This document shows positions 17,940 to 64,000 of a stretch of DNA of 64,000 nucleotides, one piece after another. The translations under genes were made by a program, and so were the position numbers. Below the pieces are notes generated by a model, which was not told the origin of the DNA, did no database searches, and saw nothing but the letters and a program-made list of their open reading frames with translations. The stretch's first letter is position 1. Each line of letters begins with the position of its first letter. This DNA is from Hysterangium stoloniferum (taxonomy: Eukaryota > Basidiomycota > Agaricomycetes > Hysterangiales > Hysterangiaceae): the NCBI GenBank assembly GCA_015178975.1, contig WHVD01000044.1:310001-374000 (forward strand), read 5' to 3'.

Positions 17940-20900
17940 GCAACTCTCTGGATTCCGTGCGGTTGGAGAGTTGCGTTGAATCTCCTCGCACACCGGAAAA
18001 TTGTCATCTTAACGCATCCGCATTGTATGATCCTAATTCTTTGTTCATAAATCTTACTTCGGAACCTCTCGGGAGTTTCACTTTTCGAGCTCTCATAGAT
18101 TCAGGTTCAACCCATTGTTTTATAGATACAAGTTTTTCCAGAAAAAATCAGTTGAAAACCTATGCAATAGATCCGATTCCGCTCCGACTTTTTGATGGTA
18201 CCTCAAACTCCGTAATCTCGCAAGCCTGCGAACTCCGACTTCGGTTCCCGTGTGGAACCTTTCAGACAGTTACGTTTTTTGTAACACAGTTGGACTCGAG
18301 CTGCTCCGTGGTTCTAGGACATAACTGGCTCACCCGCTATAATCCGTTGATTGATTGGGTATTGGGCAGTATCCATTTCCGAACCCCGTCGGCACCCGAT
18401 ACGACTGTTCCGTTTCCGCCTGTTTCGGCAAATATGGCCTCTACAGCACCTCCGGCCCCCGTGGCAAATCCGAGCTCTCCGCCGCCTGTCTCTCTAATAA
18501 ACGCCGCAGCTTTTATGAGAGCCATCAATTTGGACGGCTCCCGAGCATTTACAGTCAATCTTAAAGTTGACGAAGTCACCGGTCGCTTTGCATCCCCGGT
18601 GACCGAACCGATCGCAGATTTAGAAGGTGTTCCTAAAAAATACCATGAATTTGCAGATGTCTTCAGTAAACAAAAAGCCGATCGACTCACCCCTCACAGG
18701 CCTTACGATTTGAAAATTGATATTGAAGATGGTTCACATCCGCCCCTAGGCCCAGTTTATCCTCTCTCGCAGTCCGAATTATCGGCTATCCGAGATTTCT
18801 TGGATGAACATTTGGCTATAGGTTTTATCCGACCCTCAAAGTCTCCCTATGGAGCCCCTGTCCTATTCGTTCGGAAAAAAGACGGTTCCCTTCGACTTTG
18901 CGTTGACTTTCGAGGACTAAACGCGATTACTCGAAAAGACAAGTACCCATTACCATTAATCTCCGATTTACTCGACGCCCCTCGGAAGGCCCGAATTTAT
19001 ACAAAGATAGATCTCAAACACGCCTATCATTTGGTTCGGATCGCCGAAGGCGACGAATGGAAAACGGCTTTTCGCACTCGCTATGGCTCCTTTGAATGGT
19101 TAGTAATGCCTTTCGGCCTCACCAACGCTCCGTCGGTCTTTCAACGTTTTATCAACGATGTCTTTTCCGACCTCCTTGACGTCTTTGTCATTGTGTACCT
19201 AGACGACATCCTCATCTTCTCCGAAGACCCTACACTTCATGATGAACACGTCCGTGAAGTCCTCCGAAGACTCCGAAAACATGGTCTTTTTGCGAATGGT
19301 AAAAAATGTTCTTTTGATGTCGACACGGTTGAATACTTAGGCTTCATGATGGGACCCGATGGTCTCCGCATGGACGACGCTAAAATTCAAGTCATTCAAG
19401 ATTGGCTGGAACCCCGAAAGGTTAAAGATATTCAATCCTTTTTAGGCTTCGCCAATTTTTATCGCCGTTTCATTCACAATTACTCAAAAATTACCGTTCC
19501 GCTCACTCGTCTTACTCGCAAAGACGCCCCGTGGAATTTCTCCGAAGAATGCCGATCGGCATTCCAGGAATTGAAAAGTGCGTTTACATCCGCCCCTATC
19601 TTGTCGCACTGGAAACCCGACGTTCAACTCATCGTGGAAACTGATGCTTCGGACTATGCGCTTGCCGCGATATTGTCCATTCTGGACACCGATGGTGAAG
19701 TACACCCAGTAGCTTTTCTGTCTCGCACATTTTCGGCGCCCGAACTCAACTACGACGTTCACGATAAGGAATTACTCGCAATATTTGAAGCTTTCAAGAC
19801 ATGGCGACATTATTTGGAGGGCTCGGCCCACCCGGTAGATGTTATTACAGACCACAAAAATTTAGTTTACTTTTCAACCACAAAACTTCTCACCCGTCGA
19901 CAAGCTCGATGGTCCGAATACCTCTCCGCTTTCAACATGGTAATCCGCTTCCGTCCCGGCCGCCTTGGTGGAAAACCCGACGCTATGACTAGACGATGGG
20001 ACGTCTATCCTAAAGAGGGGAGTAGCGACTACGCCACAGTTAATCCGCATAATTTCAAACCTATGTTTTCATCGGAACAACTGTCCGCATCTATCCGAGC
20101 CACTTACCTCATTCATCCAGTCTTGCGAAGTGTTATCCTTATGGATACCGAAAAGTTACATCAAGACATGCTATCGGCAATTCCATTTGACCCAGTCACC
20201 AAAGCACACCTCGATAACCCGTCCGACCCCGATCAGCCCCGATGGTCATTAGACTCACAAGGTTTCATTCGACTTGACAATCGCATTTATGTACCGGATT
20301 CCGACACCCTTCGGCTGCGAATCCTACAACATAAGCACGACCACCCAATCTCAGGACATTTCGGCCTCAATAAGACCCTCTCACTCATTAGAAGAGAATA
20401 TACATGGCCCGGCATCCGAGATTTTGTTAAGCACTATTGTAAATCCTGTACTACGTGTTTACGCTCTAAATCACAGCGACACAAACCATATGGCCTACTC
20501 AAACAATTACCGATACCGGAAAAACCCTGGAACTCGATTTCTATGGATTTTATCGAGCACCTACCGGCATCCGAAGGTCACACAGCAATCCTAGTTGTTG
20601 TGGATCGGCTCTCAAAGCAAAGTATTTTCATTCCAACATATGACACGATAACATCTGTACAGTTAGCTGAATTATTCGTTACCCACGTATTTTCCAAGCA
20701 TGGCATTCCGTCGCATGTCACATCCGATCGCGGCTCCGAGTTTGTCTCTCACTTCTTTAGGTCACTCGGAAAAGCACTAGACATGAAGTTACACTTCACT
20801 TCGGGCTATCACCCGGAAGGCGATGGACAAACCGAACGCATGAATCAAACCTTGGAGCAATACATCCGTGTCTATTGCAACTATCAACAAGACAATTGGA

Positions 20901-21625
20901 AATCACTACTACCGCTGGCCGAATTCGCATACAACAACGCACCAAATGCCACTACTGGCATTTCGCCTTTCTTCGCAAATAAAGGCTACAACCCCAACAT
21001 CGCAATCCACCCGGAACGCGATCTCGCATCCGCCCGTGCTCAAGACTTTGTTACAAACCTCGACGAGCTACATCAAGAACTTCGTAAAACTATCGCAATG
21101 GCTCAAGAACGATACCAACGGTCTGCGGATAAAAACCGACTTCCACCTCCTGATTTCAAGATCGGAGACCAAGTATTCGTTAAAGCCGAGTTTTTCCGAA
21201 CTACTAGACCTTCTAAGAAGCTCTCTGAAAAATATTTAGGTCCTTTCGAAGTTATAGCACAAGCCGGCACACTTTCATGGACGCTTCGGCTCCCCGACAA
21301 CATGCGTGCAGTGCACCCGGTATTTCATGTATCTATGTTAGAACCTTGTGTTCCTAACAATATACCGGATCGCATACAGCCACCACCTCCACCCGTGATT
21401 ATTGATGGGGAACCCGAATTCGAGATATCAGAAATCCTAGACTCAAAAATCGACAATCGCCGACGCTCATGCAAATTACTTTATTTGGTCAAATGGGCTG
21501 GCTATGAAGGTACAGATGAAGAAACTTCATGGATCCTAGCTACAGAGCTCGGTAATGCCTCGGAAATCGTTTTAGGGTTTCACCAAGCTTATCCGAACAA
21601 ACCCGGTCCTCTCAATTCCTTATAA
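17813..21625 (+). CDS. pol of chromovirus C (protease, RT, RNase H, integrase, chromodomain)
   Basis: A 1,270-codon open frame. In order it shows an aspartic protease motif (ALIDSGSTHCFID), reverse transcriptase with the YLDDILIFS box, RNase H (VETDASDYALAAIL), the integrase HHCC zinc region (CKSCTTCLRSKSQ), the integrase core (ISMDFIEHLPASEGHTAI, HVTSDRGSEF) and a C-terminal chromodomain (LYLVKWAGYEGTDEETSWIL). The frame overlaps the end of gag by about 127 bp in the -1 register, as in Ty3/Gypsy elements that use frameshifting or re-initiation. The true start of the pol product cannot be fixed from sequence alone. Confidence 0.95.
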   Translation: MFVVCRSRTPSRCMPKSHKSPIGQHGHDLTTGQAGCRVEKRLSNSLDSVRLESCVESPRTPENCHLNASALYDPNSLFINLTSEPLGSFTFRALIDSGSTHCFIDTSFSRKNQLKTYAIDPIPLRLFDGTSNSVISQACELRLRFPCGTFQTVTFFVTQLDSSCSVVLGHNWLTRYNPLIDWVLGSIHFRTPSAPDTTVPFPPVSANMASTAPPAPVANPSSPPPVSLINAAAFMRAINLDGSRAFTVNLKVDEVTGRFASPVTEPIADLEGVPKKYHEFADVFSKQKADRLTPHRPYDLKIDIEDGSHPPLGPVYPLSQSELSAIRDFLDEHLAIGFIRPSKSPYGAPVLFVRKKDGSLRLCVDFRGLNAITRKDKYPLPLISDLLDAPRKARIYTKIDLKHAYHLVRIAEGDEWKTAFRTRYGSFEWLVMPFGLTNAPSVFQRFINDVFSDLLDVFVIVYLDDILIFSEDPTLHDEHVREVLRRLRKHGLFANGKKCSFDVDTVEYLGFMMGPDGLRMDDAKIQVIQDWLEPRKVKDIQSFLGFANFYRRFIHNYSKITVPLTRLTRKDAPWNFSEECRSAFQELKSAFTSAPILSHWKPDVQLIVETDASDYALAAILSILDTDGEVHPVAFLSRTFSAPELNYDVHDKELLAIFEAFKTWRHYLEGSAHPVDVITDHKNLVYFSTTKLLTRRQARWSEYLSAFNMVIRFRPGRLGGKPDAMTRRWDVYPKEGSSDYATVNPHNFKPMFSSEQLSASIRATYLIHPVLRSVILMDTEKLHQDMLSAIPFDPVTKAHLDNPSDPDQPRWSLDSQGFIRLDNRIYVPDSDTLRLRILQHKHDHPISGHFGLNKTLSLIRREYTWPGIRDFVKHYCKSCTTCLRSKSQRHKPYGLLKQLPIPEKPWNSISMDFIEHLPASEGHTAILVVVDRLSKQSIFIPTYDTITSVQLAELFVTHVFSKHGIPSHVTSDRGSEFVSHFFRSLGKALDMKLHFTSGYHPEGDGQTERMNQTLEQYIRVYCNYQQDNWKSLLPLAEFAYNNAPNATTGISPFFANKGYNPNIAIHPERDLASARAQDFVTNLDELHQELRKTIAMAQERYQRSADKNRLPPPDFKIGDQVFVKAEFFRTTRPSKKLSEKYLGPFEVIAQAGTLSWTLRLPDNMRAVHPVFHVSMLEPCVPNNIPDRIQPPPPPVIIDGEPEFEISEILDSKIDNRRRSCKLLYLVKWAGYEGTDEETSWILATELGNASEIVLGFHQAYPNKPGPLNSL

Positions 21626-24587: not shown

Positions 24588-24861
24588 GATTGAATGATGT
24601 CATTTAGAATTTTCTAAAATTTTCTAGAGCATTGTGGAAGGTTCTAACTACTTCTAAGACACTATAGAATATTCTTGGCATAATAGAACATTCTAGAATT
24701 TTATAGAATGTTCTACTATATTCTATCTACCATTTGTATCTATTATCTACTGTTCCTTTGGAAGCCACTGGAATATTCCAGTTTTTGCTGTAGTAGCATA
24801 CATGATGACTCTCGCACCTGTGTGTGTATGACACCCTTTGCGTCTTGTGACTGTCATGCAC

Positions 24862-25380
24862 CTTTGTGACCATTGCGCGCCTTTGTGACCGTTGCACGCC
24901 TTTGTGACCGTTGTGCACCTTTGTGACTGTTGTGCGCCTTTGTGACCGTTGCACGCCTTTGTGACCATTGCGTGCCTTTGTGACCATTGTGCACCTTTGT
25001 GACTGTTGTGCGCCTTTGTGACCGTTGCGTGCCTTTGTGACCATTGGGCGCCTTTGTGACCGTTGCATGCCTTTGTGACCGTTGTGCGCCTTTGTGACCA
25101 TTGTGCGCCTTTGTGACCGTTGCGCACCTTTGTGACCATTGCGTGCCTTTGTGACCATTGCGCACCTTTGTGACCGTTGCACACCTTTGTGACTGTTGTG
25201 CACCTTTGTGATCATCACATGTCTTTGTGACCATCACATGTCTTTGTGACCATCACATGTCTTTGTGACCATCACATGTCTTTGTGACCATCACATGTCT
25301 TTGTGACCATCACATGTCTTTGTGACCATCACATGTCTTTGTGACCATCACATGTCTTTGTGACCATCACGTGCCTTTGT
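24862..25380. repeat. 19-bp minisatellite inside long LTR L1
   Basis: About 27 direct copies of a 19-bp unit of the type CTTTGTGACCATTGCGTGC, changing at about 25200 to a homogeneous block of CTTTGTGACCATCACATGT. Measured starts at 24862, 24881, 24900 and 24919 give a 19-bp period. Shorter or different 19-bp arrays sit at the matching place in L2 (about 31090-31240) and L4 (about 38826-39020). The apparent HKGAQRSQR-like peptides on the minus strand are by-products. Confidence 0.9.
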
Positions 25381-25866
25381 GACAACTGTCACCTGTTGTG
25401 ACGGCTGTCACTCATTGTGACGATTTTCCTGTGCACTGTGTAATAAATGCCAGGTGGCCGTTTTGATATTATTATATAATTATTATATTTACTTTTAGTT
25501 AACTATAAATATAATAATATTTTATTATAATAATATATATTGCCTTGAATATGTGTGATTATTTCACATCAGATTTTGTCCTTGTCGGAGTTTGAAATGT
25601 CATGTGAATATCACATGATCTCTTCACATGTTGTGCATAAGCGCTGAGTCACCAGCATATTAATCAAAAAAGAATAAAAGGTAGAATTCAATAACTTGCT
25701 CAATTTATAAGATAAAAATACAAAGTAAATTGCATAAATTCAAGATAAATCAAGACAATATTGTACAATTTTATCGTCACAATATAAATACATTTAAACT
25801 TACTTTTTTGCAATTTGTTAGGGGAGATTGGTTTAAAAAATGGAAAAGGCTTAGAAATACATAACA

Positions 25867-29980: not shown

Positions 29981-31092
29981 AGGGGTAATCTGAGTCAATA
30001 TTGGAACTGGAGAGTTGTAGCATATACAGTAACCCCCAAAAAAGCATCCAGATGTTTGGTGAAATTTGAAAGAGAGGTTCACAGCTCCAGAAATAAAATA
30101 GATAAAAATCAGAAAAAATCAGAAGTAAGAGATATATATCTGATTTATATGATGACATAGGCATGTCATTATAGCTTTCCTCATCAGGAGAGTAAAAAAT
30201 GAACAATGGACATGGTGCATCTGGACACTTTTTGCTCTGTCAACTGATATATGAAACTCAACTGAGGTTCATATGACTGTGGGAATTTCTGGTTAGATTC
30301 AACATGGTCATGTGACCACATGTTTAGATAACACATTTATATAAACCTTTGCCTCATTTCACCCACCACATTATGAAGAAGCATTCTGCTAAAACAAGAC
30401 TCTCTGTCATTTCCCTTCTCCAGGAGGGTCACTCCTGCAGAACAATTGCTTCTAAACTCCATATTGGGCACTCTACAGTATCAGAAATTCACTCCCAACT
30501 CCCTGGTCCACTTCCAACACCTTCCAGAGGTTTGTCCTCCCAAGCTCTCCCCAGGAATCATCACCTGGTCCATTATATCACCTCTGGACAGGTTGATAAT
30601 GCTGTTATGTATTTTTAGCTTTTTTCCGATTTTTAAACAATTTCCCCTAACAAATTGTGAAAACAAATATTCAAATGTATTTATATTGCGACAATAAAAT
30701 TGTACTATGTTTGCCTGATTTATCTTGAATTTATACAATTTATTTTGTATTTTTATCTTATAAATTGAGCAAGTTATTAAATTTTTACTTTTTATTCTTT
30801 TTTGATTAATATGTCGGCGACTCAGCGCTTATTCACAACGCATGAGTAATCATGTGATATTCACATGACATTTCAAACTCCGACGCCGACAAAATGCGAT
30901 GTGAAATAATCGTGCATAATCAAGACAATATATATATTTTTATATTATTATAATAAAATATTATATTTATAACTAACTAAAAATAAATATAATAAATATA
31001 TAATAATATCAAACCGGCCACCTTTTATTACACGGCGTGTGGGAAACTCATTACAACGAGTGACAGCCGTCACAACAAGTGACAGTTGTCAC

Positions 31093-31246
31093 AAAGGCAC
31101 GCAACGGTCACAGAGGCATGAGATGGTCACAAAGGCGCGCAATGGTCACAAAGGCGCACAATGGTCACAAAGGCGCGCAATGGTCACAAAGGCGCGCAAT
31201 GGTCACAAAGGCACGCAACGGTCACAGAGGCGCATGACAGTCACAA
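31093..31246 (+). repeat. 19-bp minisatellite inside long LTR L2
   Basis: About eight copies of GGTCACAAAGGCGCGCAAT, the reverse complement of the 19-bp unit at 24862-25380. This fits the opposite orientation of L1 and L2. Confidence 0.85.
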
Positions 31247-34703: not shown

Positions 34704-36481
34704 TGTGATGTATTAGCCTTATTTTAATACTATTTTCCGAAAAAGGAGTCCAATGCTCTATCAAAATGTGCAAATACTCAATTCACTGCAAGGTAAAATA
34801 ATTTAAGTATTTGATATTAATCAGTGGCAGCCTAAATAGACTTAGAACCCCCTGAAGTCAAGAGTTTACTTGAATATATGCACCCTACTTCACAAAGAAG
34901 GTTTTGAGAGCTACTTGTGCAAGCTTGTTCTTTTTCTGTAAAAACACTACTAAAATATGAATAACAATTCACTGATTCAGAATCTAGATTTGACTTCGAT
35001 TCTAGCTAGTTTATATATATTTTATACTATTTATCAAACAGTAAAAATATTTATAAACAGGTCAAAAGATTAGATATAGAATAAGACACTATTTGGCTAA
35101 TATATGCTTTATTTACACTAACCTACAGGGTCTACTGTGATACTAACTTATCAGGATCTTAATGTAGTCTTAAGGATTCTGCAAGGATATTCTCAGTATT
35201 TGTTTATGTGAATATGCTTTACTGATTCACAATGAATGAACAATAGAACAGGATTATTTGCAATGTAATAAACAGTCAAATTACTCAACTAGAGGTGACT
35301 CAAGTTTTAAACTACAAATAACAATGTAAAGAAAACTAATAATCGGTACTCAATTAAGAGATGACTATAGTATAAAGGATTAATACCAGAAGCTCAACAA
35401 GAGGTGGCAGGGAATCCTGATTGGTCAGAAGAGTGACCAGGGGGTAGGATTATTGTCAGAAGCTCAACAAGAGGTGACAAAGGGATCCTGAGATAACTTA
35501 GGTCAGCAGCTCAACTAGAGGTGACTAAGTATTTGTATTTATTTGTCCAACAGCCCAACTAGGGGTGGAATAAACTGCTTGCTACAGTGGCACACTGATG
35601 TGGCTGATAAAATGTAGTAAAGATTGATTGATTTATTTTCAAGGCTGGAGCTGAGCTCCTTATATACATTTTGGTCTGAGACATTTAGAAGATTCTAGAA
35701 GATTGAATGATGTCATTTAGAATTTTCTAGAATTTTCTAGAGCATAGTGGAAGGTTCTAACTACTTCTAAGACACTATAGAATATTCTTGGCATAATAGA
35801 ACTTACTGGAATCTTATAGAATATTCTACAATATTCTATCTATTATTAGTACCTATTAACTACTATTACTTTGGCAGCCACTGAAATGTTCCAGAGATTT
35901 CCGGTTTTTGCTGTAGTAGCATATATGATTATATAATGCTCTCACACCTGTGCACGCGCATGACATCCTTCGTGTCTTGTGACTGTCACATGTTGTGACA
36001 GTCGCGCGCCCTTGTGACAACTGTCACTTGTTGTGACGGCTGTCATTCATTGTGACGAGTTTCCGGCGCGCCGTGTAATAAAAGGTGGCTGGTTTGATAA
36101 TTTTTAGTTAACTATAAATATAATAATATTTATAATAATCATATAAATATATATATTCCCTTGAATATGCATGATTATTTCACATCGCATTTTGTCAGCG
36201 TCGGAGTTTGAAATGTCATGTGAATATCACGTGATCACTCACGCATTGTGAATAAGCGCTGAGTCGCCGACATATTAATCAAAAAAGAATAAAAGTTTGA
36301 AATTCAATAACTTGCTCAATTTATTAGATAAAAATACAAAATAAATTGTATAAATTCAGGATAAATCAAACAAATATTGTACAATTTAATCGTCGCAATA
36401 TAATTACATTTGAATATTTGTTTTTGCAATTTGTTAGGGGAAATTGTTTAAAAATCAGAAAAAACTTAGAAATACATAACA
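34704..36481 (-). mobile_element. Long LTR 'L3', 1,778 bp, solo
   Basis: Starts TGTGATGTATTAGCC, ends AATACATAACA, and is flanked by the perfect duplication CTTAC (34699-34703 and 36482-36486) within the 21-bp minisatellite of LTR D. It has a single heat-shock-like motif (GAAGATTCTAGAA, 35688-35700) and an inverted TATA region near 35660. It is shorter than L1 mainly because the 19-bp minisatellite is nearly absent. Confidence 0.88.
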
Positions 36482-38067: not shown

Positions 38068-38825
38068 CTAACCTACAGGGTCTACTGTGGTACTAACTTA
38101 TTAGGATCTTAATGTAGTCTTAAGGATCTTGTAAGAATATTCTCAGTATTTATTTATGCCAAAAACCGGGGTAGAAATTAGAAATGTATTCCTAATCTTA
38201 ACTATGATGACCAAGATTGTTTATTACTTTTATTGATAACTAACAACTCAACTAGAGGTGGATAAGTAATAAAGGAAAGCCAGCTACTCAACTAAGAGGT
38301 GGCAAAGGGAACAGTTGATATGTATGTTTATTTATTTATTATTGATTGATAACCAACAGTTCAACTAGGGTGGTTAAGGGATTGGATTATGCTAACAGCT
38401 CAACTAGAGGTAGCAATGAGATTGGCTTATGTCAACAGCTCAACTAGAGGTGACTAAGTGTTTATATGTATTTGTCCAACAGCCCAATTAGGGGTGGAAT
38501 ATAACTGCTGCTGCAGTGGCACACTGGTATGGCTGGTTAAGATGGTTAAATTGAGTTATATTTCAGTGGTGGAGCAGAGCTTCTTATATACAGTAAAATC
38601 TGAGATATGGGAGAATGTTCTAGTTACTTGTTTTACCTATTTTTAGCTATTTTACCTGGAATCTGCTGGAATATTCCAGAAGTTTCTACTACTTTCCATT
38701 GTAGGATATATGCTGATGTAATGTTCTCACACATCGTGAAGTTGCTGATTTTCATGCGTGCACACTGATTACTTAATTTTCCTGTGTATGTCACACAATT
38801 GTGACAAGTTGTTGGATTTTGTGAC

Positions 38826-39030
38826 AATAGTCACTTGTTGTGACAATGGTCACTTGTTGTGACAATGGTCACTTGTTGTGACAATGGTCACTTGTTGTGA
38901 CAATGGTCACTTGTTGTGACATTGGTCACTTGTTGTGACATTGGTCACTTGTTGTGACATTGGTCACTTGTTGTGACATTGGTCACTTGTTGTGACATTG
39001 GTCACTCATTGTGACAAATGTCACCTGTTG
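38826..39030. repeat. 19-bp minisatellite inside L4 with palindromic units
   Basis: About ten copies of GTGACAATGGTCACTTGTT or its GTGACATTGG variant, period 19 bp. Each unit holds an inverted pair GTGAC-nnnn-GTCAC. Confidence 0.88.
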
Positions 39031-39281
39031 TGACAAATATTGTGCAATAAGTGCCAGATGGCCGACTTGAAGATATTTAGATAAAAAAGAATAAACAGTA
39101 GAAATTTGATAGCTCTCCCAAAATAAATGATAAAAATATGAAATAAATTGTAAAAATCAGGTTAATTTCAGGAGACTATTGTAAAATAATTCTGTCACAA
39201 TATAAGTACATTTAAACTTGTTTTTACCAATTTGTTAGGGGAGATTGGGTAAAAATCAGAAAAACCTAAAAATACATAACA

Positions 39282-39589: not shown

Positions 39590-42454
39590 TCAAGAATGGT
39601 ATAGCTTACACAAGCTACCAAGATTAACACTCATGGCAACTAGAGGATACAAACACTTACTACATTTCAAGATAATTTCAATCAGTGTACAATAATGTTG
39701 CAGAGGTGGTGTGGGTAAATATAGATGGCACAATGCAGACAGGACTATCTGCAGCTTAATGTTGGGAAGGTACCCTGCAAGACTCTGAAAGGAGTCAATT
39801 ATGCAAAGAATTAAAGCTTACCATATTGAGCAAAAGCTACAAACAATTTTCCACCAGCTGAGATGGCTGTGTCATTGTCGGCATCAACAAGAGACATACA
39901 GTGATGTTGTAAGTTACAGTTAATAATAGCTTCACGAAAGCAATCTTTAAAAACATGGGTGAGGGGAAGGTGTTGACTTGGGTGTCAAAGGCACACACCA
40001 TGAGCTACTAGCTTAACGAGCAGGTCAACAACTTCTGCTTGAGTGTGTGAATGTGTGTCTTCCAACAGTGCAACAATGTCGGGAATGGCACCCGCAAAGG
40101 CGGCCAGGAATTCGGCTGTGGTCAAATGTCAGCTGGATTCCCGTCTCATTGTCACACACCGCACCTTGCTCTGAAACTTTCCCCAGGGCCGATACTGCCC
40201 TTGATCGAACGTACCGATCAGAGTCCTTCAACAGTGCAACAATGTCGGGAATGACACCCGCAATGGCGGCTCGAAAGTCGGCTGTGGTCAAATGTCAGCT
40301 GGATTCCCATCCCATTATCACACACCGCACCTCGCTTCGAAACCTTCTCCAAGGCCGATACTGCGTTTGATCGAACGTCAGAGTCAGAGTCCTTCAACAG
40401 TGCAACAATCTCGGGAATGACACCCGCAATGGCGGCTCGAAATTCGGCTGTGGTCAAATGTCATCTGGATTCCCATCCTATTGTCACGCACCGCACCTTG
40501 CTCTGAAATCTTCCCCAGGGCCGATACTGCCCTTGATCGAACATCAGAGTCAGAGTGCTTCAACAGTGCAACAATGTCGGGAATGACACCCGCAATGACG
40601 GGTCGAAATTCGGCTGTGGTCAAATGTCAGCTGGATTCCCATCCTATTGTCACATACCGCACCTTGCTCTGAAACCTTCCCCAGGACCGATACTGCGCTT
40701 GATCGAACGTACCACTCAGAGTGCTTCAACAGTGCAACAATGTCGGGAATGACACCCGCAATGGCGGCTCGAAATTCGGCTGTGGTTACATGTCATCTGG
40801 ATTCCCGTCTCATTGTCACACACCGCACCTTGCTCTGAAACTTTCCCCAGGGCCGATACTGCGCTTGATCGAACGTCAAACTCAGAGTGCTTCAACAGTG
40901 CAACAATGTCGGGAATGACACCCGCAATGGCGGCTCGAAAGTCAGCTGTGGTCAAATGTCAGCTGGATTCCCATCCTATTGTCACACAGCGCACCTTGCT
41001 CTGAAACCTTCCCCAGGACCGATACTGCCCTTGATCGAACGCGCGAGTTAGAGTCCTTCAACAGTGCAACAATCTCGGGAATGACACCCGCAATGGCGGG
41101 TCGAAATTCGGCTGTGATCAAATGTCAGCTGGATTCCCATCCCATTGTCACACACCGGACCTTGCTCTGAAACCACCCCCACGGCCGATACTGCGCTTGA
41201 TCGAACGTCAAAGTCAGAATCCTTCAACAGTGCAACAATGTCGGGAATGACACCCGCAATGGCGGGTCGAAATTCGGCTGTGGTCAAATGTCATCTGGAT
41301 TCCCATCCCATTGTCACACACCGCACCTTGCGCTGAAACCTTCTCCAGGGCTGATACTGCGCTTGATCGAACGCGCGAGTTAGAGTTCTTTAACAGTGCA
41401 ACAATGTCGGGAATGACACCCGCAATGGCGGCTCGAAATTCGGCTGTGGTCAAATGTCAGCTGGATTCCTATCCCATTGTCACACCGCACCTTGCTCTGA
41501 AACCACCCCCAGGGCCGATACTGCGCTTGATCGAACGTCAGAGTCAGAATCCTTCAACAGTGCAACAATCTCGGGAATGACGCCCGCAATGGCGGGTCGA
41601 AATTCGGCTGTGGTCAAATGTCATCTGGATTCCCATCCCATTGTCACACACCGCACCTTGCGCTGAAACCTTCTCCAGGGCTGATACTGCGCTTGATCGA
41701 ACGCGCGAGTTAGAGTTCTTTAACAGTGCAACAATGTCGGGAATGACACCCGCAATGGCGGCTCGAAATTCGGCTGTGGTCAAATGTCAGCTGGATTCCT
41801 ATCCCATTGTCACACCGCACCTTGCTCTGAAACCACCCCCAGGGCCGATACTGCGCTTGATCGAACGTCAGAGTCAGAATCCTTCAACAGTGCAACAATC
41901 TCGGGAATGACGCCCTCAATGGCGGCTCGAAATTCGGCTGTGGTCAAATGTCAGCTGGATTCCCATCCCATTGTCACACAGCGCACCATGCTCTGAAACC
42001 TTCTCCAGGGCCGATACTGCCCTTGATCGAACATCAGAGTCAGAGTCCTTCAACAGTGCAACAATGTCGGGAATGACACCCGCAATGGCGACTCGAAATT
42101 CGGCTGTGGTCAAATGTCAGCTGGATTCCCATCCCATTGTCACACACCGGACCTTGCTCTGAAACCACCTCCAGGGCCGATACTGCGCTTGATCGAACGT
42201 CAGAGTCAGAATCCTTCAACAGTGCAACAATGTCGGGGATGACACCCGCAACGGCGGGTCGAAATTCGGCTGTGGTCAAATGTCATCTGGATTCCCATCC
42301 CATTGTCACACACCGCACCTTGCGCTGAAACCTTCTCCAGGGCCGATACTGCGCTTGATCTAACGTCGAGGTCAGAGTCCTTCAACAGTGTAACAACGTC
42401 AGGAATGGCGGCAGTAATGGCGGTTCCAAATGCGTCTGCAAATCCATGAATCAT
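39590..42454 (-). CDS. HEAT-repeat protein gene 2 (15 one-repeat exons plus C-terminal exons)
   Basis: Predicted start is ATG at 42454; exon 1 is 42454-42319 and codes the first HEAT repeat (AIPDVVTLLKDSDLDVRSS). Thirteen 117-nt exons follow (first 42269-42153), then a diverged terminal 117-nt exon (40115-39999). Next come a 123-nt exon (39944-39822, DCFREAIINC to KLFVAFAQY) and a last exon (about 39774-39590). All introns are phase 1; the repeat introns are 49 or 47 nt. Summing the exons gives 2,082 nt, an intact frame of about 693 residues. The product is expected to be an alpha-solenoid with no membrane segment. There is no N-terminal effector domain, so it may be a duplicate or fragment of the upstream gene. 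Exon choice at the 3' end is the least certain part. Confidence 0.7.
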
Positions 42455-45240
42455 GGCAGTTTACGAGGAATTGGTGCACGGACCAAATATATGCAGAGCA
42501 GTGACCACCCTTAACAGACCAAACTTTCCATTTCGCGCTTTCAGGTCAAATCTGGGTAAGGGAAGGTAAAAATTCCGCGCTTTAAAGTGGGATGGAAATT
42601 AGTGAATGAATAATACACGACCTGTCATTACATACATGTAATTGTTAAACATTGAATGATCTTGATGTCTCGATGACGCGAAATACTATCAGTACTATGC
42701 AAGAGATCCACAATTGACGACAGAGGACGGGTAGACAATCCGGGGAGGTCTCGCATATCGGGCACACATGCTAGATTACGGTAGTATTGATCAGAATAAG
42801 AGGGAAAAAAAGAGGGAATGGGAATGCTTTGAACTGGGATTGGAAGTGACTCACGCAGCGTTGGTTGCTTCGACAGTCCTATGGCCGCATGTATTGTAGC
42901 CCTGACGAGAGGGAGAAACTCCCCTGTGGAGATTTAAGACAGATCCTTTGACAAGATTTATTGGATCACCTTGTTCTGAAAATTTCCCCAGGGCCGATAC
43001 TGCGCTTGATCGAACGTCAGACTCAGAATGCTTCAACAGTGCAACAATGTCGGGAATGACACCCGCAATGGCGGCTCGAAATTCGGCTGTGGTTACATGT
43101 CATCTGGATTCCCGTCTCATTGTCACACACCGCACCTTGCTCTGAAACTTTCCCCAGGGCCGATACTGCGCTTGATCGAACGTCAAACTCAGAGTGCTTC
43201 AACAGTGCAACAATGTCGGGAATGACACCCGCAATGGCGGCTCGAAAGTCAGCTGTGGTCAAATGTCAGCTGGATTCCCATCCTATTGTCACATACCGCA
43301 CCTTGCTCTGAAACCTTCCCCAGGACCGATACTGCGCTTGATCGAACGTACCACTCAGAGTGCTTCAACAGTGCAACAATGTCGGGAATGACACCCGCAA
43401 TGGCGGCTCGAAATTCGGCTGTGGTCAAATGTCAGCTGGATTCCCATCCTATTGTCACATACCGCACCTTGCTCTGAAACCTTCCCCAGGACCGATACTG
43501 CGCTTGATCGAACGTACCACTCAGAGTGCTTCAACAGTGGAACAATGTCGGGAATGACACCCGCAATGGCGGCTCGAAATTCGGCTGTGGTCAAATGTCA
43601 GCTGGATTCCTATCCCATTGTCACACCGCACCTTGCTCTGAAACCTTCCCCAGGACCGATACTGCGCTTGATCGAACGTACCACTCAGAGTCCTTCAACA
43701 GTGCAACAATGTCGGGAATGACACCCGCAATGGCGGCTCGAAATTCGGCTGTGGTCAAATGTCAGCTGGATTCCCATCCTATTGTCACACAGCGCACCTT
43801 GCTCTGAAACCTTCCCCAGGGCCGATACTGCCCTTGATCGAACGCGCGAGTTAGAGTCCTTCAACAGTGCAACAATCTCGGGAATGACACCCGCAATGGC
43901 GGGTCGAAATTCGGCTGTGATCAAATGTCAGCTGGATTCCCATCCCATTGTCACACACCGGACCTTGCTCTGAAACCACCCCCACGGCCGATACTGCGCT
44001 TGATCGAACGTCAAAGTCAGAATCCTTCAACAGTGCAACAATGTCGGGAATGACACCCGCAATGGCGGGTCGAAATTCGGCTGTGGTCAAATGTCAGCTG
44101 GATTCCTATCCCATTGTCACACCGCACCTTGCTCTGAAACCACCCCCAGGGCCGATACTGCGCTTGATCGAACGTCAGAGTCAGAATCCTTCAACAGTGC
44201 AACAATCTCGGGAATGACACCCGCAATGGCAGGTCGAAATTCGGCTGTGGTCAAATGTCAGCTGGATTCCCATCCCATTGTCACACACCGGACCTTGCTC
44301 TGAAACCTTCCCCAGGGCCGATGCTGCGCTTGATCGAACGCGTGAGTTAGAGTTCTTTAACAGTGCAACAATCTCGGGAATGACACCCGCAATGGCAGGT
44401 CGAAATTCGGCTGTGGTCAAATGTCAGCTGGATTCCCATCCCATTGTCACACACCGGACCTTGCTCTGAAACCTTCCCCAGGGCCGATGCTGCGCTTGAT
44501 CGAACGCGTGAGTTAGAGTTCTTTAACAGTGCAACAATGTCGGGAATGACACCCGCAATGACGGCTCGAAATTCGGCTGTGGTCAAATGTCAGCTGGATT
44601 CCCATCCTATTGTCACATACCGCACCTTGCTCTGAAACCTTCCCCAGGACCGATACTGCGCTTGATCGAACGTACCACTCAGAGTGCTTCAACAGTGCAA
44701 CAATGTCGGGAATGACACCCGCAATGGCGGCTCGAAATTCGGCTGTGGTCAAATGTCAGCTGGATTCCCATCCTATTGTCACATACCGCACCTTGCTCTG
44801 AAACCTTCCCCAGGACCGATACTGCGCTTGATCGAACGTACCACTCAGAGTGCTTCAACAGTGCAACAATGTCGGGAATGACACCCGCAATGGCGGCTCG
44901 AAATTCGGCTGTGGTCAAATGTCAGCTGGATTCCCATCCTATTGTCACACAGCGCACCTTGCTCTGAAACCTTCCCCAGGGCCGATACTGCCCTTGATCG
45001 AACGCGCGAGTTAGAGTCCTTCAACAGTGCAACAATGTCGGGAATGACACCCGCAATGGCGGCTCGAAATTCGGCTGTGGTCAAATGTCAGCTGGATTCC
45101 CATCCCATTGTCACACACCGGACCTTGCTCTGAAACCTTCTCCAGGGCCGATAGTGCGTTTGATCGAACGTACCACCCAGAGTCCTTCAACAGTGCAACA
45201 ATGTCGGGAATGGCACCGACCATACCTCTCGGGAATCTAG
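39999..45240 (-). repeat. Array of 29 tandem 166-bp exon-intron units
   Basis: Fifteen units (39999-42454) and fourteen units (42970-45240), separated by about 515 bp of other sequence. Unit spacing is 166 bp, or 164 bp where the intron lacks two bases (for example near 41480, 41810, 43620 and 44110). Each unit has a 117-nt exon coding 39 residues of the pattern AEFRAAIAGVIPDIVALLK. An inter-helix loop and VRSSAVSALEKVSEQ follow. The intron starts GTGCGG or GTCCGG and ends GACCACAG, with a CTGAC or ATGAC branch-like site. The 166-bp period is not a multiple of three, so the frame stays open only if the introns are removed. Confidence 0.92.
42455..42627 (-). promoter_or_regulatory. Short intergenic region before HEAT gene 2
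   Basis: Only 173 bp separate the stop of gene 1 from the ATG of gene 2. On the minus strand it holds AAAGCGCGGAATTTT, then GAAAGCGCGAAATGG (a TTTCGCGC, E2F-like core), then CATATATTT about 45 bp before the ATG. It could be a compact promoter. The alternative is that genes 1 and 2 are one transcription unit and this is an intron. Confidence 0.35.
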
Positions 45241-47171
45241 CTGAACACCGATGCATATTATATTGTACTTCTCCTCCACTTGGCATTTTCTTACCACATT
45301 CCACTAGTAATTGTTCTACAGAAACATCTGCTTTTTTAACCCTTTTCTTCATCCACTCTTTTCCTTTTCCTGTTGGGATAATAATCAGGTACATGTGTTT
45401 TGACTCATGGTATACGCAGTTTACCTGCCATTAAACCTTTTTCTTTCAGCATTTTCCGGCAATCCGCTGTCCATTGATCAGTTTCTTTGCCGGAGCCATG
45501 GAAAAAATCCTTACAAAGATCCCAATATGCTAATATTAACCGTTCGCAGGTTACATCTAAGCCCTTCTTTTCCGACAGTGCTCCATCAATAGCCGCCGCC
45601 ATTAACGTCCTTCGCTCGTATGGTGCTGCACCCATAGTGGCCACCGTTTCAATTTGTCGTTCTGTCGGCACCTCTAGGTTACCGTCATCCATGTTTACCC
45701 AAATACCAATGTGAACCGCCCAACCCAATGTCTTCACGCAAGGATTTAAATTATCCAACCGATGTAATGGTCTCCCAACATGTAGGAGTCTTTTGAAGGG
45801 CGTAAGGTACTCTTTGTTCATGAGTTTGTCTGTTGGCGGCAATAGGACTCGTGACATTGCAAGGAGAGAAACCTCCGCAAGCGCTGCATCCCGTATAGTG
45901 ACGACGCCTGCGGTAAAGTGAAAGCAGTTCTCCAAAGTTTTGCATAATTTCTCCGTGACGGCTAGTTTACACAAGGCAATCCGCAACTGTTGACATTGTT
46001 TAGCACCCGCTACAGCCCTAAGTGCCTCCTTAAGTGCCTCCTCCGATGTGGAGTTTGCAATCATCCATGCCAGGATATCAGCTTCAAGTTCGGCCCGTGG
46101 AGGCCTGCCATGCAATTCGGCGAAGAACCGAGCAAGGCTTTCTAGCCATTCAGAAATTCCGAATGTGTACGTCCTTGTCTGTGGCGAAGACCCACAGTAG
46201 TCTGAGGTGGACGAGTCATACTTTGCGCTTGCAGACACGACTGGGAAAAACCGTGACGCTGTTGTCTGAAAGGGACAAGCGGGGGAAAACAAGGGAAAAA
46301 CCGTGCCGAGTGCATATAGCACGACTGCAAATATGGTCAAAAAAAGCATAAGAACGCCCAAAGCTACACTGTTATTCCACGTGAATAAGACGAGACCTGC
46401 CGAGAAAAGGAAGAGAGCTATTTGAATCAAAAGCGGGATTCCAGTAACAACTGACTCGAGGCGCCATTGCTGTGCTCTCTTAACACGAAGGAGACGTTGG
46501 CATGCATCACTTGAGCGACTTCCAGGGGACACCGGAATATACTTCGCCAACCATTCTCTTGCAAGTACAGCACAAAGAGCACTGAAGAGAGTCAGACCGA
46601 GACTAGTGAACCACAAATAGTTAACAATAAGGGATGATTTGGAGACTTCAAGAGGCTGAGAGGTAGGTACAGCGAAGTGATTTTGAAGCGCCTGAAGGAT
46701 TTCCTGAACAGGATCTACCTGCAAATCCTTCCTACTTTCGATCAGGAACGCGGTAAGAATCGCTCCGAACAAACCCGCCTGAAAAACTGTGAATTAATTG
46801 AATATCAATGAAGGAGAACGTATTCAACATACAAATATTAGAAGCTCGTCGACACCAACTTGCAATGAAGTGGCAAGCTCTTTGTCCTCTTTTTCCGTTT
46901 CCTTCAGATATAATGACCATATGGTTGAATCGGATTCAACGTGCTTGCTATAGGGGTTATCGTCCTCGCTTTCTAAGCCATTATCACCACTGTATGCCGC
47001 CTCGGTTGGGCTTGAGGGAACATTAGTAGACAAAGGTTGACGGTTAGTCGTTCCTTGTTCCTCTGCTTGTGTGCCTCAGTTTAGAATAAGTGTAAACTTT
47101 GATTTAATACCTGAGACAAACGGTATCTGTGATTCGGCGCAACTAAGGTCTTGTGCATACTGCGAAGACAT
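42628..47171 (-). CDS. DUF6535-like membrane domain plus HEAT-repeat protein, gene 1
   Basis: Predicted exons: 47171-47111, 47065-46833, 46778-45425, 45369-45124, thirteen 117-nt HEAT exons (first 45074-44958, last ending 42970) and a final exon 42923-42628. The sum is 3,711 nt, an intact frame of about 1,236 residues. Exon 2 has WSLYLKETEKEDKELA. Exon 3 starts AGLFGAILTAFLIESRK and holds three likely membrane helices (LIVNYLWFTSLGLTLFSALC; IPLLIQIALFLFSAGLVLF; LGVLMLFLTIFAVVLYALG). This is the layout of the basidiomycete DUF6535 family. Exon 4 carries the first HEAT repeat. All introns after exon 3 are phase 1. The likely role is a membrane-anchored receptor or scaffold; the function is unknown. 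The last exon may hide one more intron (GTGAGT near 42852), which would keep the same frame. Confidence 0.78.
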
Positions 47172-58918: not shown

Positions 58919-60256
58919 CAGTGCCTCAAAAAACCCTTCTCATGTTTTATATTTCAGATGTATATTCCATGTAATTCAAAGAATAAAAATGGAAAAAATA
59001 TCAAAGATATTTGTGAATATACTCTATCATATCTAGATTGTGGAAGTACAATACCATTACAAAATCTCCAAGTATGGAAATTTTGCAAATATTTATATAC
59101 ATACAAGAGATTCATGAGAAGGATTTTTTTGTGGCAAGTTTGATGACTATAAGTGCTTATAGTCATGTGACTTTGTTGATTTTTTACTTCCAGTTGGGTC
59201 CTATCAACAAAATCATATGATGTCACATGACCATGTTGTACTGGAGTATAAATATATGGCTTTTAGCAACCAGCAATGCCCCAAATCCCAAAATGCGCAC
59301 TTTATCTCTTGCCAGCCAGAATCATATCCTCTCATTGCTTGATGTTAGCCATTCAGCTAGCCACATTGCAGCTTCTACTGGTCATAGCATTTCCACAGTC
59401 TCTGAGCTTTGCTCTAAGCATCGTTCTCATCTCTCAAAGTCCATTGGTGGTCGTCCCTCAAAGCTTTCCCCTACCAACATTTACTATGCACAGCGCCTTA
59501 TCAGCTCTGGGAAGGCTGACACTGCTGTTGATGTGACCAAAGCCCTTAAGGAATCTCACCAACCAGTCCATCTCTACCCAAACTGTGTGCAATAGTCTCA
59601 AGATGGTTGGGATGAAGGCTGTGATGAAGAAGAAAAAGCCCCTTCTCAGCAAGAAGCATAGGAAGGCAAGGATGGACTTTGCTATAGCACATCAGCATTG
59701 GACTGTGGAGGACTGGAAGAAGGTGGTATGGTCTGATGAAACCAAAATCAACAGGTTGGGGTCAGATGGGAGGAAGTGGGTCTGGAAAAAGGCTGGGGAG
59801 GGCTTGAGTAACAGGCTGGTTCAGGAGACTCAGAAGTTTGGAGGAGGATCTGTGATGGTATGGGGGTGCATGCTGTGGGAAGGACCTGGGTATGCTTGCA
59901 AGATAGATGGGAGGATGGATGGAGATCTTTATCTCAAGATTATGGAGGAGGACCTTCAAGCCAGCCTCAACTATTATAGAAAATCTGTGGGTGATGTTAT
60001 CTTCCAGCAAGACAATGACCCCAAACATACCTGCAAGAAGGCCCAGACTTGGTTTCAAAATAATAATTTCAATGTCCTCCCATGGCCAGCACAATCTCCA
60101 GACCTCAACCCCAGTGTACCAAAAGGGATACTGGAGTTGTGGGTGGAGGAGGAGTGGAGCAAGATTGATGCAGAGGTGTGTCAGAATTTGATTGGGAGTA
60201 TGCCTAGGAGGGTTGCAGCTGTGTTGAAGGCAAAGGGTGGCTATACCAAGTACTGA
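58919..60256 (+). mobile_element. Third Tc1/mariner-like transposon, right end not found
   Basis: Starts CAGTGCCTCAAAAAACCC after a TA (58917-58918), the expected form of a Tc1/mariner left end, and contains a transposase (59293-60256). I could not find the matching inverted end downstream of 60256. A GGAGGCACC word near 60266 is too short to count. The element may be truncated at its right end. Confidence 0.72.
59293..60256 (+). pseudogene. Tc1-like transposase lacking the third catalytic acid
   Basis: ATG 59293 starts a helix-turn-helix domain (ASQNHILSLLDVSHSASHIA, STVSELCSKHRSHLSKS). A frame change at about 59590 leads to the long second frame with VVWSDETKINRLGSDG (first D), IFQQDNDPKHTCKKAQ (second D) and WPAQSPDLNPSVPKGILELW. 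In this last motif the usual IEHLWxxLKKRL segment is missing, so the third catalytic E is absent. It ends MPRRVAAVLKAKGGYTKY at 60256. It is the best-preserved transposase of the three but is catalytically dead by deletion. Confidence 0.9.
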
Positions 60257-60956
60257 ATATAACACTGGAGGCACCCCAAGATTTTTGGAGTTGCAAAACC
60301 TTCAGAAAATCTTGCTATTTGGCCAAATTTGCTAAGCATTCTTTGAACTGAAAAACTGTTTGAAAATCTTGAGTTTTAGTAGGTTTTTCTGAGGACAAAA
60401 ATTGTATCTGAAAACCCTAAAAATGTTGATCAGGAAATTCTAAGGAAACATTGTGGAAATAGCCTATTTTCTGTGGATTTTCTAAATAGGAAAATTCTTA
60501 AAAAACCCTGGGTTTTGTTAGGGTTTTTCCACCCAACAGAATTCTATGAAAACTGTAATAATTTGCCTAGAGAAATCAATTGAAAACCACATATTTCTAC
60601 TCAATTTTTCTGCTCAGGGAATTGGGTGAAAACTATAATTTTTTACCAGGAAAATCTTGTGCCAAGACAATGTTTTGTTAATGTTTTGTCAAGGGGAAAA
60701 CCCATAATGAAATTGACAATTTAATTATATGGGAAATCATTGAATAATTATAGATTTTAATAAGATTTTCCTTGGCCACAAACATTATGGAAATTCAAAA
60801 AATGTGTTGGTGAAATTTTGAAGAAATTAACATTTTCGCATGAGTGTCTTAAAGGTTTTTCAAGATGAGAAACCTTGAACTGATTTTTCCTGATTGAGCA
60901 TGATTCACAATTGTTTGGAATGGTACAGTGGGATTTACAAATATTTAAGAGGATTG
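60257..60956. other. AT-rich interval, no gene
   Basis: About 700 bp rich in GAAAATCTT, AAAACC and GGTTTTTC words, suggestive of a simple decayed repeat. No coding or RNA gene seen. Confidence 0.45.
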
Positions 60957-63217
60957 TTTTAGATTCAGGTAGATTCTTTTAGATTCAGATAGATTCTTTG
61001 AGATTCAGATAGATTCTCTTAGATTCAGATAGATTCTTTTAGATTCAGATAGATTCTTTTAGATTCAGATAGATGCTTTTAGATTCAGATAGATTCTTTT
61101 AGATTCAGATAGATGCTTTTAGATTCAGATAGATGCTTTTAGATTCAGATAGATGCTTTTAGATTCAGATAGATGCTTTTAGATTCAGATAGATTCTTTT
61201 AGATTCAGATAGATTCTTTTAGATTCAGATAGATTCTTTTAGATTCAGATAGATTCTTTTAGATTCAGATAGATTCTTTTAGATTCAGATAGATTCTTTT
61301 AGATTCAGATAGATTCTTTTAGATTCAGATAGATTCTTTTAGATTCAGATAGATTCAGATAGATTCAGATAGATTCAGATAGATTCTTTTAGATTCACAT
61401 AGATTCAGATAGATTATTTTAGATTCAGGTAGATTCTTGTAGATTCAGGGAGATTCTTTTAGATTCAGATAGATTCTTTTAGATTCAGATAGATTCTTTT
61501 AGATTCAGATAGATTCTTTTAGATTGACATAGATTCAGATAGATTCTTTTAGATTGACATAGATTCAGATAGATTCTTTTAGATTGACATAGATTCAGAT
61601 AGATTCTTTTAGATTGACATAGATGCAGATAGATTATTTTAGATTCAGGTAGATCCTTGTAGATTCAGATAGATTCTTTTAGATTCACATAGATTCTTTT
61701 AGATTCAGGTAGATTCTTTTAGATTCACATAGATTCAGATAGATTCTTTTAGATTCTTTTAGATTCTTTTAGATTCAGATAGATTCTTTTAGATTCAGGT
61801 AGATTCTTGTAGATTCAGGTAGATTCTTTTAGATTCAGATAGATTGTTTTAGATTCACATAGATTCTTTTAGATTCAGATAGATTCTTTTGGATTCAGAT
61901 AGATTCTTTTAGATTCAGATAGATTCTTTTAGATTCAGATAGATTCTTTTAGATTCAGATAGATTCTTTTAGATTCAGATAGATTCTTTTAGATTCACAT
62001 AGATTCTTTTAGATTCAGATAGATTCTCTTAGATTCAGATAGATTCTTTTAGATTCAGATAGATTCTTTCAGATTCACATAGATTCAGATAGATTCTGTT
62101 AGATTGACATAGATGCAGATAGATTATTTTAGATTCAGGTAGATTCTTGTAGATTCACATAGATTCTTTTAGATTCAGGTAGATTCTTTTAGATTCACAT
62201 AGATTCAGATAGATTCTTTTAGATTCTTTTAGATTCAGATAGATTATTTGAGATTCAGGTAGATTCTTGTAGATTCAGGTAGATTCTTTTAGATTCAGGA
62301 TAGATTCTTTTAGATTCACATAGATTCTTGTAGATTCAGGGAGATTCTTTTAGATTCAGATAGATTCTTTTAGATTCAGATAGATTCTTTTAGATTCAGA
62401 TAGATTCTTTTAGATTCAGATAGATTCTTTTAGATTCAGATAGATTCTTTTAGATTCAGATAGATTCTTTTAGATTCAGATAGATTCTTTTAGATTCAGA
62501 TAGATTCTTTTAGATTCAGATAGATTCTTTTAGATTCAGATAGATTCTTTTAGATTCAGATAGATTCTTTTAGATTCAGATAGATTCTTTTAGATTCACA
62601 TCGATTCAGATAGATTCAGATAGATCCAAATAGACTCTTTTAGATTCACATAGATTCAGGTAGATTCTTTTAGATTCACATATATTCTTTTAGATTCAGA
62701 TAGATTCTTTTAGATTCACATAGATTCTTTTAGATTCAGATAGATTATTTTAGATTCAGGTAGATTCTTGTAGATTCAGATAGATTCTTTTACATTCAGA
62801 TAGATTATTTTAGATTCACATAGATTCAGATAGATTCTTTTACATTCAGATAGATTCTTGTAGATTCACATAGATTCTTTTAGATTCACATAGATTCTTT
62901 TAGATTCACATAGATTCTTTTAGATTCAGGTAGATTCTTTTAGATTCAGATAGATTCAGATAGATTCAGATAGATTCAGATAGATTCAGATAGATTCAGA
63001 TAGATTCAGATAGATTCACATAGATTCACATAGATTCACATAGATTCACATAGATTCACATAGATTCACATAGATTCAGATAGATTCAGATAGATTCAGA
63101 TAGATTCACATAGATTCACATAGATTCACATAGATTCACATAGATTCACATAGATTCAGATACATAGATTCTCTTAGATTCACATAGACTCTTTTAGATT
63201 CACATAGATTCTTTTAT
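60957..63217 (+). repeat. Satellite with 10-bp period, AGATTCNNNN
   Basis: About 2.26 kb of the unit AGATTC plus a variable tetranucleotide, most often TTTT or AGAT, also ACAT, AGGT and TTGT. AGATTCAGAT and AGATTCTTTT mostly alternate, giving a 20-bp higher order, with blocks of pure AGATTCAGAT and AGATTCACAT near 62940-63150. Rare one-base slips occur (near 62300). No coding capacity. Confidence 0.95.
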
Positions 63218-64000
63218 GGTTTAGGGTGAATCTAAAAGAATCTAAAAGAATCTATCTGAATCTCAAACAATCTATCTGAATCTATGTGAATCTAAAAGAA
63301 TCTACCTGAATCTAAAAGAATCTATCTGAATCTCAAAGAATTTATCTGAATCTAAGAGAATCTACCTGAATCTAAAATAATCTATCTGAATCTATGTGAA
63401 TCTGAAAAGAATCTATCTGAATCCAAAAGAATCTATCTGAATCTCTCTGAATCTTTGTGAATCTATGTGAATCTATGTGAATCTATCTGAATCTATGTGA
63501 ATCTAAAAGAATCTATCTGAATCTAAAAGAATCTAAAAGAATCTATGTGAATCTAAAAGAATCTATCTGAATCTAAAAGAATCTATCTGAATCTAAAAGA
63601 ATCTATGTGAAGCTATGTGAAGCTAAAAGAATCTATCTGAACCTAAAAGAATCTATCTGAATCCAAAAGAATCTATCTGAATCTAAAAGAATCTACCTGA
63701 ATCTACAAGAATCTACCTGAATCTAAAATAATCTATCTGAATCTAAAAGAATTTCAAAGAATCTATCTGAATCTATGTGAATCTAAAAGAATCTACCTGA
63801 ATCTAAAAGAATCTATGTGAATCTAAAAGAATCTATCTGAATCTACAAGAATCTACCTGAATCTAAAATAATCTATCTGCATCTAGTCAATCTAAAAGAA
63901 TCTATCTGAATCTAAAAGAATCTATCTGAATCTAAAAGAATCTATCTGAATCTAAAAGAATCTATCTGAATCTAAAAGAATCTATCTGAATCTAAAAGAA
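63218..64000 (-). repeat. Same satellite in inverted orientation, cut by window end
   Basis: After a short junction (TTATGGTTTAGGGTGAATC, about 63214-63232) the array continues as the reverse complement, GAATCTAAAAGAATCTATCT, to the last base. The array certainly extends beyond the window. Confidence 0.95.

Follow-up and report, generated by a model that had tools for sequence, protein, structure and literature searches.

In the genome of the fungus Hysterangium stoloniferum, a tandem array of 166-nucleotide (nt) units raises the question of whether a repeat protein can be encoded with one repeat to an exon, each accompanied by its own near-identical intron, and of what such a gene might be for. 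The array lies on contig WHVD01000044.1, in a 64-kb window (the whole stretch of DNA analysed, positions 310,001 to 374,000 of the contig) within a 111,116,353-base, 554-contig assembly, to which all genome-wide counts given here refer. We find that the array almost certainly belongs to a spliced protein-coding gene, and that the gene is probably one of a large family of HEAT solenoids, membrane-anchored and spread among Agaricomycetes, whose members, judged from sequence, are best read as diversified recognition receptors.

One HEAT repeat per exon

Tandem Repeats Finder places the 166-nt array at 40063-45217 of the window, and on the minus strand, the orientation of the HEAT array, 117-nt exons open in phase 1 alternate with GT..CACAG introns, confirming the units of 117 coding nt and 49 or 47 intronic nt that an initial annotation of this DNA, made from the letters alone, had proposed. 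When 47171-39590 is spliced on that strand, 38 exons yield a protein of 1,904 amino acids whose frame stays open throughout, with GT..AG borders at all 37 introns; the annotated expectation that intron removal would leave the units open thus holds across the whole model, which likewise supports the proposal that each phase-1 exon holds one repeat and was amplified together with its intron. Exactly 117 nt are found in 28 exons, 13 before a spacer and 15 after it, and among the 27 repeat introns, near-identical to each other, 23 measure 49 nt and four 47 nt, so that the two-base length changes in the window are intronic, as had been noted. The annotated total of 29 stands for the HEAT repeats but falls to 28 for one-repeat exons, since the first repeat is the end of a 246-nt exon; the strand, too, had to be corrected to minus, and a further 48-nt intron added upstream of the arrays. 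HEAT identity itself is upheld by Pfam profiles PF02985 and PF13646, which, run on seven spliced units, score 130.7 and 118.6 bits against cut-offs of 23.5 and 27.7. An N-terminal DUF6535 domain (PF20153; 152.8 bits, cut-off 23.9), a genome-wide family and a set of hypervariable codons, all found here, had no place in the initial annotation. The parts of the gene, in window coordinates, are as follows:

39590..47171, minus strand: whole gene, 38 exons, 1,904 amino acids (open spliced frame, all 37 introns GT..AG; equal order in a Mycena homolog, P0001); in order, DUF6535 membrane domain, linker, HEAT array 1, spacer, HEAT array 2, C-terminal helical part
46374..46919, minus strand: DUF6535 (PF20153), hydrophobic helices, split by an intron at 46832-46779 (Pfam, a genome profile match at this place, hydropathy)
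45467..45514, minus strand: 48-nt intron, open in the window copy (in-frame stops in 14 of 17 assessed paralogs)
45124..45369, minus strand: 246-nt exon ending in the first HEAT repeat (gene model)
42970..45074, minus strand: array 1, 13 one-repeat 117-nt exons with 12 introns between them, preceded by a 49-nt intron at 45123-45075
42436..42969, minus strand: spacer, coding for a divergent stretch (alignment of 19 spacers, splice borders and frame counted; frame open in the window)
42969-42924, 42854-42771, 42631-42552 and 42483-42436, minus strand: spacer introns
42923-42855, 42770-42632 and 42551-42484, minus strand: spacer exons, carrying the frame onward in the window
39999..42435, minus strand: array 2, 15 one-repeat 117-nt exons with 14 introns of 49 or 47 nt
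39590..39998, minus strand: C-terminal part, introns 39998-39945 and 39821-39775, exons 39944-39822 and 39774-39590 (open frame only)

The start and end of the gene were placed by the open frame, and the start also resembles, by eye, that of a Mycena venus protein (P0002); the C-terminal part is the least certain portion of the model. A model without the 48-nt intron at 45514-45467 was dropped, as paralogs show stops in that stretch (the count of 14 in 17 covers only paralogs whose alignment reached it). The protein pieces used for the Pfam scan and homolog search, like the N-terminal exon compared among paralogs, include 16 residues that are probably intronic.

That the introns are spliced out is strongly supported by the relatives of this gene. 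Of the 75 matches to DUF6535 in the genome, 47 reach at least 100 bits; we fetched the stretches around the top 20 of these 47 (the window's own ranks 24th), and 19 of the 20 carry an array of HEAT exons, L031 being without one. Across the window and the 19 paralogs (529 units), donors are GT in 513 units, GC in 13 and other in three, while acceptors are AG in 516 and other in 13, six of the latter coming from one type of exon, which carries an in-frame insertion and was cut in two by the search. Exons with AG..GT/GC borders measure 117 nt in 501 of 513 cases, and of 487 introns 441 contain a branch-like CTRAN. Within exons, 10 of the 12 length changes are multiples of three, as against 8 of the 129 within introns (Fisher P = 4e-9, an optimistic value given that the copies are related); stops occur in four of the 529 units, confined to L035, L044 and L047. 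The N-terminal (DUF6535) exon looks constrained, with a median ratio of nonsynonymous to synonymous divergence (dN/dS) of 0.42 over 188 pairs whose proportion of synonymous differences (pS) lies between 0.03 and 0.6, and with no pair reaching 1. In the Mycena homolog P0001, the repeats are joined SEQ-AEFR with nothing between, and 15 of 21 spacings are 39 residues, as the spliced model predicts.

Alignment also bears on how many genes the window array comprises. The initial annotation had treated the two blocks of repeats as separate genes; the 534-nt gap between them proves instead to be a conserved spacer with three exons; counting the window, 18 of the 20 array loci have it, and it occurs 19 times in all (L043 has two; none of this kind was seen in L038 or L047). 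All four spacer introns are GT..AG in 17 of the 19 spacers, and 18 of the 19 are free of stops once spliced. On this alignment of conserved, spliceable spacers we reject the two-gene reading, and P0001 shows the same order of repeats, odd middle and repeats. The unit that follows the spacer has lost its usual AG acceptor in L033, L037, L043 and L048, where an alternative AG 12 nt inside the exon would preserve the frame; of the 516 units that measure 117 nt, 368 have an AG at exon nt 11-12.

A family across the genome and in other fungi

Genome-wide, the 166-nt unit is matched 596 times and the pattern of the intron 3' end 1,112 times (at most three mismatches), against none for a reversed control, so that chance can hardly account for the anatomy of the arrays. 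In the window and the 20 fetched stretches, which hold 559 unit matches, the intron pattern occurs 398 times, and this proportion leads to an estimate of roughly 1,500 units genome-wide. Unit counts exclude 30 short loci (L001-L030) from the unit search; the overlapping copies L032 (minus strand) and L037 (plus strand) were kept in the 559-unit and 398-match counts and in the survey of codon variability and of introns against exons, and removed from the selection, nearest-unit, splice and length, and stop counts. By profile matches, the 17 stop-free arrays range from 22 to at least 44 repeats (the upper value from L050, where the stretch ends), which bears out the annotated idea of modular gain and loss of whole units; three arrays with stops have 15 (L035), 27 (L044) and 11 (L047). 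The genome also has 38 NACHT matches, one of them on contig C24, where a DUF6535 match lies about 2.5 kb away; NACHT genes were rejected as hosts of the arrays, as none of the 38 was shown in one gene with an array.

Four pieces of the protein were scanned against Pfam: the N-terminal 634 amino acids, seven repeats, the spacer with flanking repeats, and the C-terminal 180 amino acids. NACHT, NB-ARC, NOD and ROC-COR are absent among the families listed for these pieces (25 of 42 for the seven-repeat piece). Hydropathy places several hydrophobic stretches at residues 91-271, in the DUF6535 part, and the loop after the second is mildly basic; under the positive-inside rule for membrane topology, both ends of the protein would lie in the cytoplasm. 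The AlphaFold model of P0002 (mean predicted local distance difference test score 82) has long helices in its DUF6535 part, followed by many paired helices. Among the 50 Foldseek matches listed for it, template-modelling scores by query length are at most 0.28, uninformative for DUF6535, and the titles, read by eye, are of ARM/HEAT proteins or complexes containing such chains. In the literature searched, DUF6535 appeared in one paper, within a table.

The closest full-length match of the gene product is from Mycena. P0001, a Mycena albidolilacea 'armadillo-type protein' with 41% identity over 98% of a 985-residue query, shares the DUF6535-like start, linker, HEAT repeats, divergent middle, further repeats and C-terminal part, and differs in having 22 matched repeat starts and more diverged repeats. 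In a Mycena pura protein (P0045), HEAT repeats come after a Tle1-like lipase domain (PF09994), which hints at the pairing of such repeats with effectors elsewhere; NCBIfam gave only sub-cut-off matches on P0001 and P0045, several of them to HEAT-type lyases. A DUF6535-like start with HEAT repeats also occurs in P0044, labelled Acaulospora colombiana (15.7-kb contig), which may be a contaminant or else a genuine occurrence beyond Basidiomycota.

Hypervariable codons and probable turnover of units

Structural codons, 7, 11, 14, 17, 18 and 33 among them, barely vary across the 488 distinct unit sequences, and codons 23, 24, 9 and 28 are hypervariable, most of the latter sitting near the start of helix B, which lines the concave side of HEAT folds. 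Codons 23 and 24 are rich in Ser, Trp, Glu, Tyr, Asp, Phe, Arg and His. We compared nonsynonymous (pN) with synonymous (pS) differences by counting, with neither a codon model nor recombination included, over 347 units from 19 loci with enough pairs (L047, with too few, is omitted from the per-locus table). At codons 23, 24 and 28, pN is 2.10 times the overall pS (bootstrap over the 19 loci, 1.89-2.34), exceeding it in every one of the 19 loci, and 3.64 times intron divergence (3.04-4.33); the ratio is 0.67 for codons outside 9, 23, 24, 28 and 29, and when the codons are picked on one half of the loci and the ratio is taken on the other it is 2.09 (1.89-2.33, 100 splits). Positions 1 and 2 differ in 0.52 of pairs at codon 23 and 0.50 at codon 24, where the codons' own fourfold sites differ in 0.27 and 0.22, and fourfold sites outside codons 23, 24 and 28 in 0.16. 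Introns diverge less than exons in seven of the eight loci compared. These counts make diversifying selection at codons 23, 24 and 28 very probable, and it probably adds to some local mutational excess. The family's introns diverge less than synonymous sites (pS/intron 1.74) and nearly as much as fourfold sites, and the intron middle about as much as the whole intron (0.139 vs 0.131); their low divergence could reflect homogenisation or compact constraint.

Units appear to turn over within genes. Of 519 units, about 174 (ties shared) are closest to another unit of their own gene, where 27 would be expected, and for about 79 of these that relative is one to three units away.

A comparison with alphaRep, an engineered library of HEAT-like repeats, bears on where such a solenoid might bind. 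The alphaRep unit has 31 residues, shorter than the 39 here. The register between the two was set through a D..VR..A motif seen in the alignment from the sequence search of solved structures, and it equates codons 23, 24, 28 and 35 of the fungal unit with alphaRep positions 18, 19, 23 and 30. The alphaRep variable positions are 18, 19, 22, 23, 26 and 30, and A3 residues at the interface of the A3/bA3-2 complex are reported at randomised positions (PMC3754942); since most of the variable codons match library positions, and since the A3 interface is drawn from such positions, the variable face is by analogy a plausible binding face.

Weighing the explanations

In the explanation we favour, the introns would be spliced out, leaving each HEAT repeat as a symmetric phase-1 exon with its own 47-49-nt intron, so that whole units could be gained, lost or skipped with the frame unharmed. 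Near-identical introns would extend the homology between units and make unequal crossing-over easy, and unequal crossing-over or gene conversion between near-identical units, introns included, would keep reshuffling them. DUF6535 would anchor the solenoid at the membrane with both ends cytoplasmic, while the variable face might bind fast-changing ligands, like the WD40/ANK/TPR sensors of fungal NOD-like receptors (NLRs), making family members candidate nonself-recognition or pathogen receptors. The recognition role itself, argued from analogy, we hold to be an even bet. Exon skipping or somatic unequal recombination might even produce many solenoid variants per locus, a combinatorial, immune-like repertoire beyond the germline genes; this is conceivable because all repeat exons are phase 1-1 and their splice sites interchangeable, and we consider it rather improbable.

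Several observations weigh against this explanation. Synonymous variation is itself raised at the hypervariable codons (local pS 0.43; fourfold sites 0.25 vs 0.16), which brings the local pN/pS down to only about 1.1, and part of the nonsynonymous excess could be mutational; unit divergences, moreover, are not mutually independent, and in L036 the introns are more diverged than the exons (0.262 vs 0.206). For about 345 of the 519 units the nearest relative lies in another gene, which fits recent paralogs as well as exchange. The correspondence with alphaRep is incomplete: codons 27 and 31 (alphaRep 22 and 26) are not hypervariable and are mostly Ser, and hypervariable codon 9 has no alphaRep counterpart. 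Several members are decaying, with stops in three of the 20 arrays, a broken frame in the second spacer of L043 and, in L048, a stop at N-terminal residue 411. The usual donor of the second spacer intron is missing in L036 and L039. Among the families listed for the four scanned pieces there is no effector or signalling domain.

Some of these points would suit a scaffold, the most serious of the alternatives, though one we think appreciably less probable: the solenoid would be an ordinary HEAT scaffold whose variation reflects unequal crossing-over and relaxed surface constraint, with no recognition involved. The high local pS and the decaying members are consistent with it, and among solved structures the best match by sequence is the PP2A scaffold subunit; relaxed constraint alone, however, should not lift nonsynonymous change above both introns and fourfold sites, and tens of paralogs with differing repeat numbers would be atypical of a scaffold. 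A non-coding tandem satellite that resembles exons and introns by accident is very hard to credit, for even in a window that also contains satellites and transposon-like frames, 525 of 529 units are stop-free, the structural codons and the DUF6535 exon are constrained, and an annotated Mycena homolog exists.

Equally slight is the chance that the array was falsely expanded or collapsed in assembly: long tandem arrays are prone to misassembly and exact repeat counts may be wrong, but separate loci share the same anatomy and conserved ends while differing in unit order. The 1,112 near-identical intron 3' ends in a single genome might recall introner-like elements inserted into the repeats, an origin that we dropped as extremely unlikely. 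None of the 398 pattern matches in the window and 20 stretches falls outside an array, and in the genome as a whole 1,112 matches to the intron pattern compare with 1,115 to the intron-plus-exon pattern, a near-equal number, so that duplication of whole units explains the intron copies.

Elsewhere in the window, open frames resembling Ty3/gypsy gag and pol lie at 16641-21625 (plus strand), with fragments of another such element at 12274-15093 (minus strand; translations read, no profile search), and a Tc1/mariner-like transposase fragment was recognised by eye at 59585-60256 (plus strand). Related 19-nt tandem repeats of the TTGTGAC..GTCAC type occur at 24845-25423, 31053-31233, 36012-36058 and 38819-39036, and low-GC satellites with periods of 20, 10 and 40 nt occupy 60952-64000, reaching the window end.

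Known systems and what the family suggests

Together, our findings suggest that fungi too may have reached recognition-like genes built as one repeat, one exon, so far known from brown algae in the literature searched, the fungal version using a HEAT solenoid whose variable positions are largely those picked when a binder library was engineered. The family, whose exon-intron units number more than 1,000 in this single genome, offers a test of whether introns help or hinder repeat turnover; DUF6535 gains a candidate role, and gene finders may miss or split genes of this kind.

The alphaRep library resembles the family in a HEAT-like unit varied at positions 18, 19, 23 and, more weakly, 30, and differs in being man-made and in having positions 22 and 26 randomised as well (PMC3754942). 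The AGL surface repeat proteins of Glomeromycotina are likewise fast-evolving fungal repeats with introns more conserved than the mature coding sequence; unlike the window family, they are not HEAT proteins and have one or two introns near the signal-sequence boundary and none per repeat (PMC8786786). Truffle NLRs with 3-bp microexons are cited in a review (PMC10197012).

Fungal NLRs, such as HNWD het-d/het-e, combine internally conserved repeats with hypervariable sites and, in two reports, share with the window family near-identical repeats, variable repeat number and a few hypervariable sites on a binding face (PMC4986451, PMC12222747). In our family, as in NLRs and other STAND (signal transduction ATPases with numerous domains) proteins, conserved repeats bear hypervariable sites under diversifying selection, as judged by counting. 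The window gene is unlike them in that the families listed for its four scanned pieces include no NACHT or NB-ARC between effector and repeats, and in that its repeats are interrupted by introns; the word 'intron' occurs nowhere in the main text of either report.

The layout, which the initial annotation called unusual, is so for fungi, where the literature searched yielded no report of one-HEAT-per-exon genes, but brown-algal ROCO genes have one leucine-rich repeat (LRR) per exon, along with shuffling, diversifying selection and alternative splicing (PMC11378527). The 72-nt phase-2 LRR exons and ROC-COR of that system, as described there, differ from the HEAT repeats, 117-nt phase-1 exons and DUF6535 of the fungal gene, for which neither ROC-COR nor NB-ARC is among the families listed for the four scanned pieces. 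What the window gene, with its 28 symmetric 117-nt exons in phase 1, and its family share with the LRR-ROCO and NB-TPR candidate immune receptors of brown algae is that each repeat has a symmetric exon to itself, that repeats are shuffled and under diversifying selection, and that paralogs are many.

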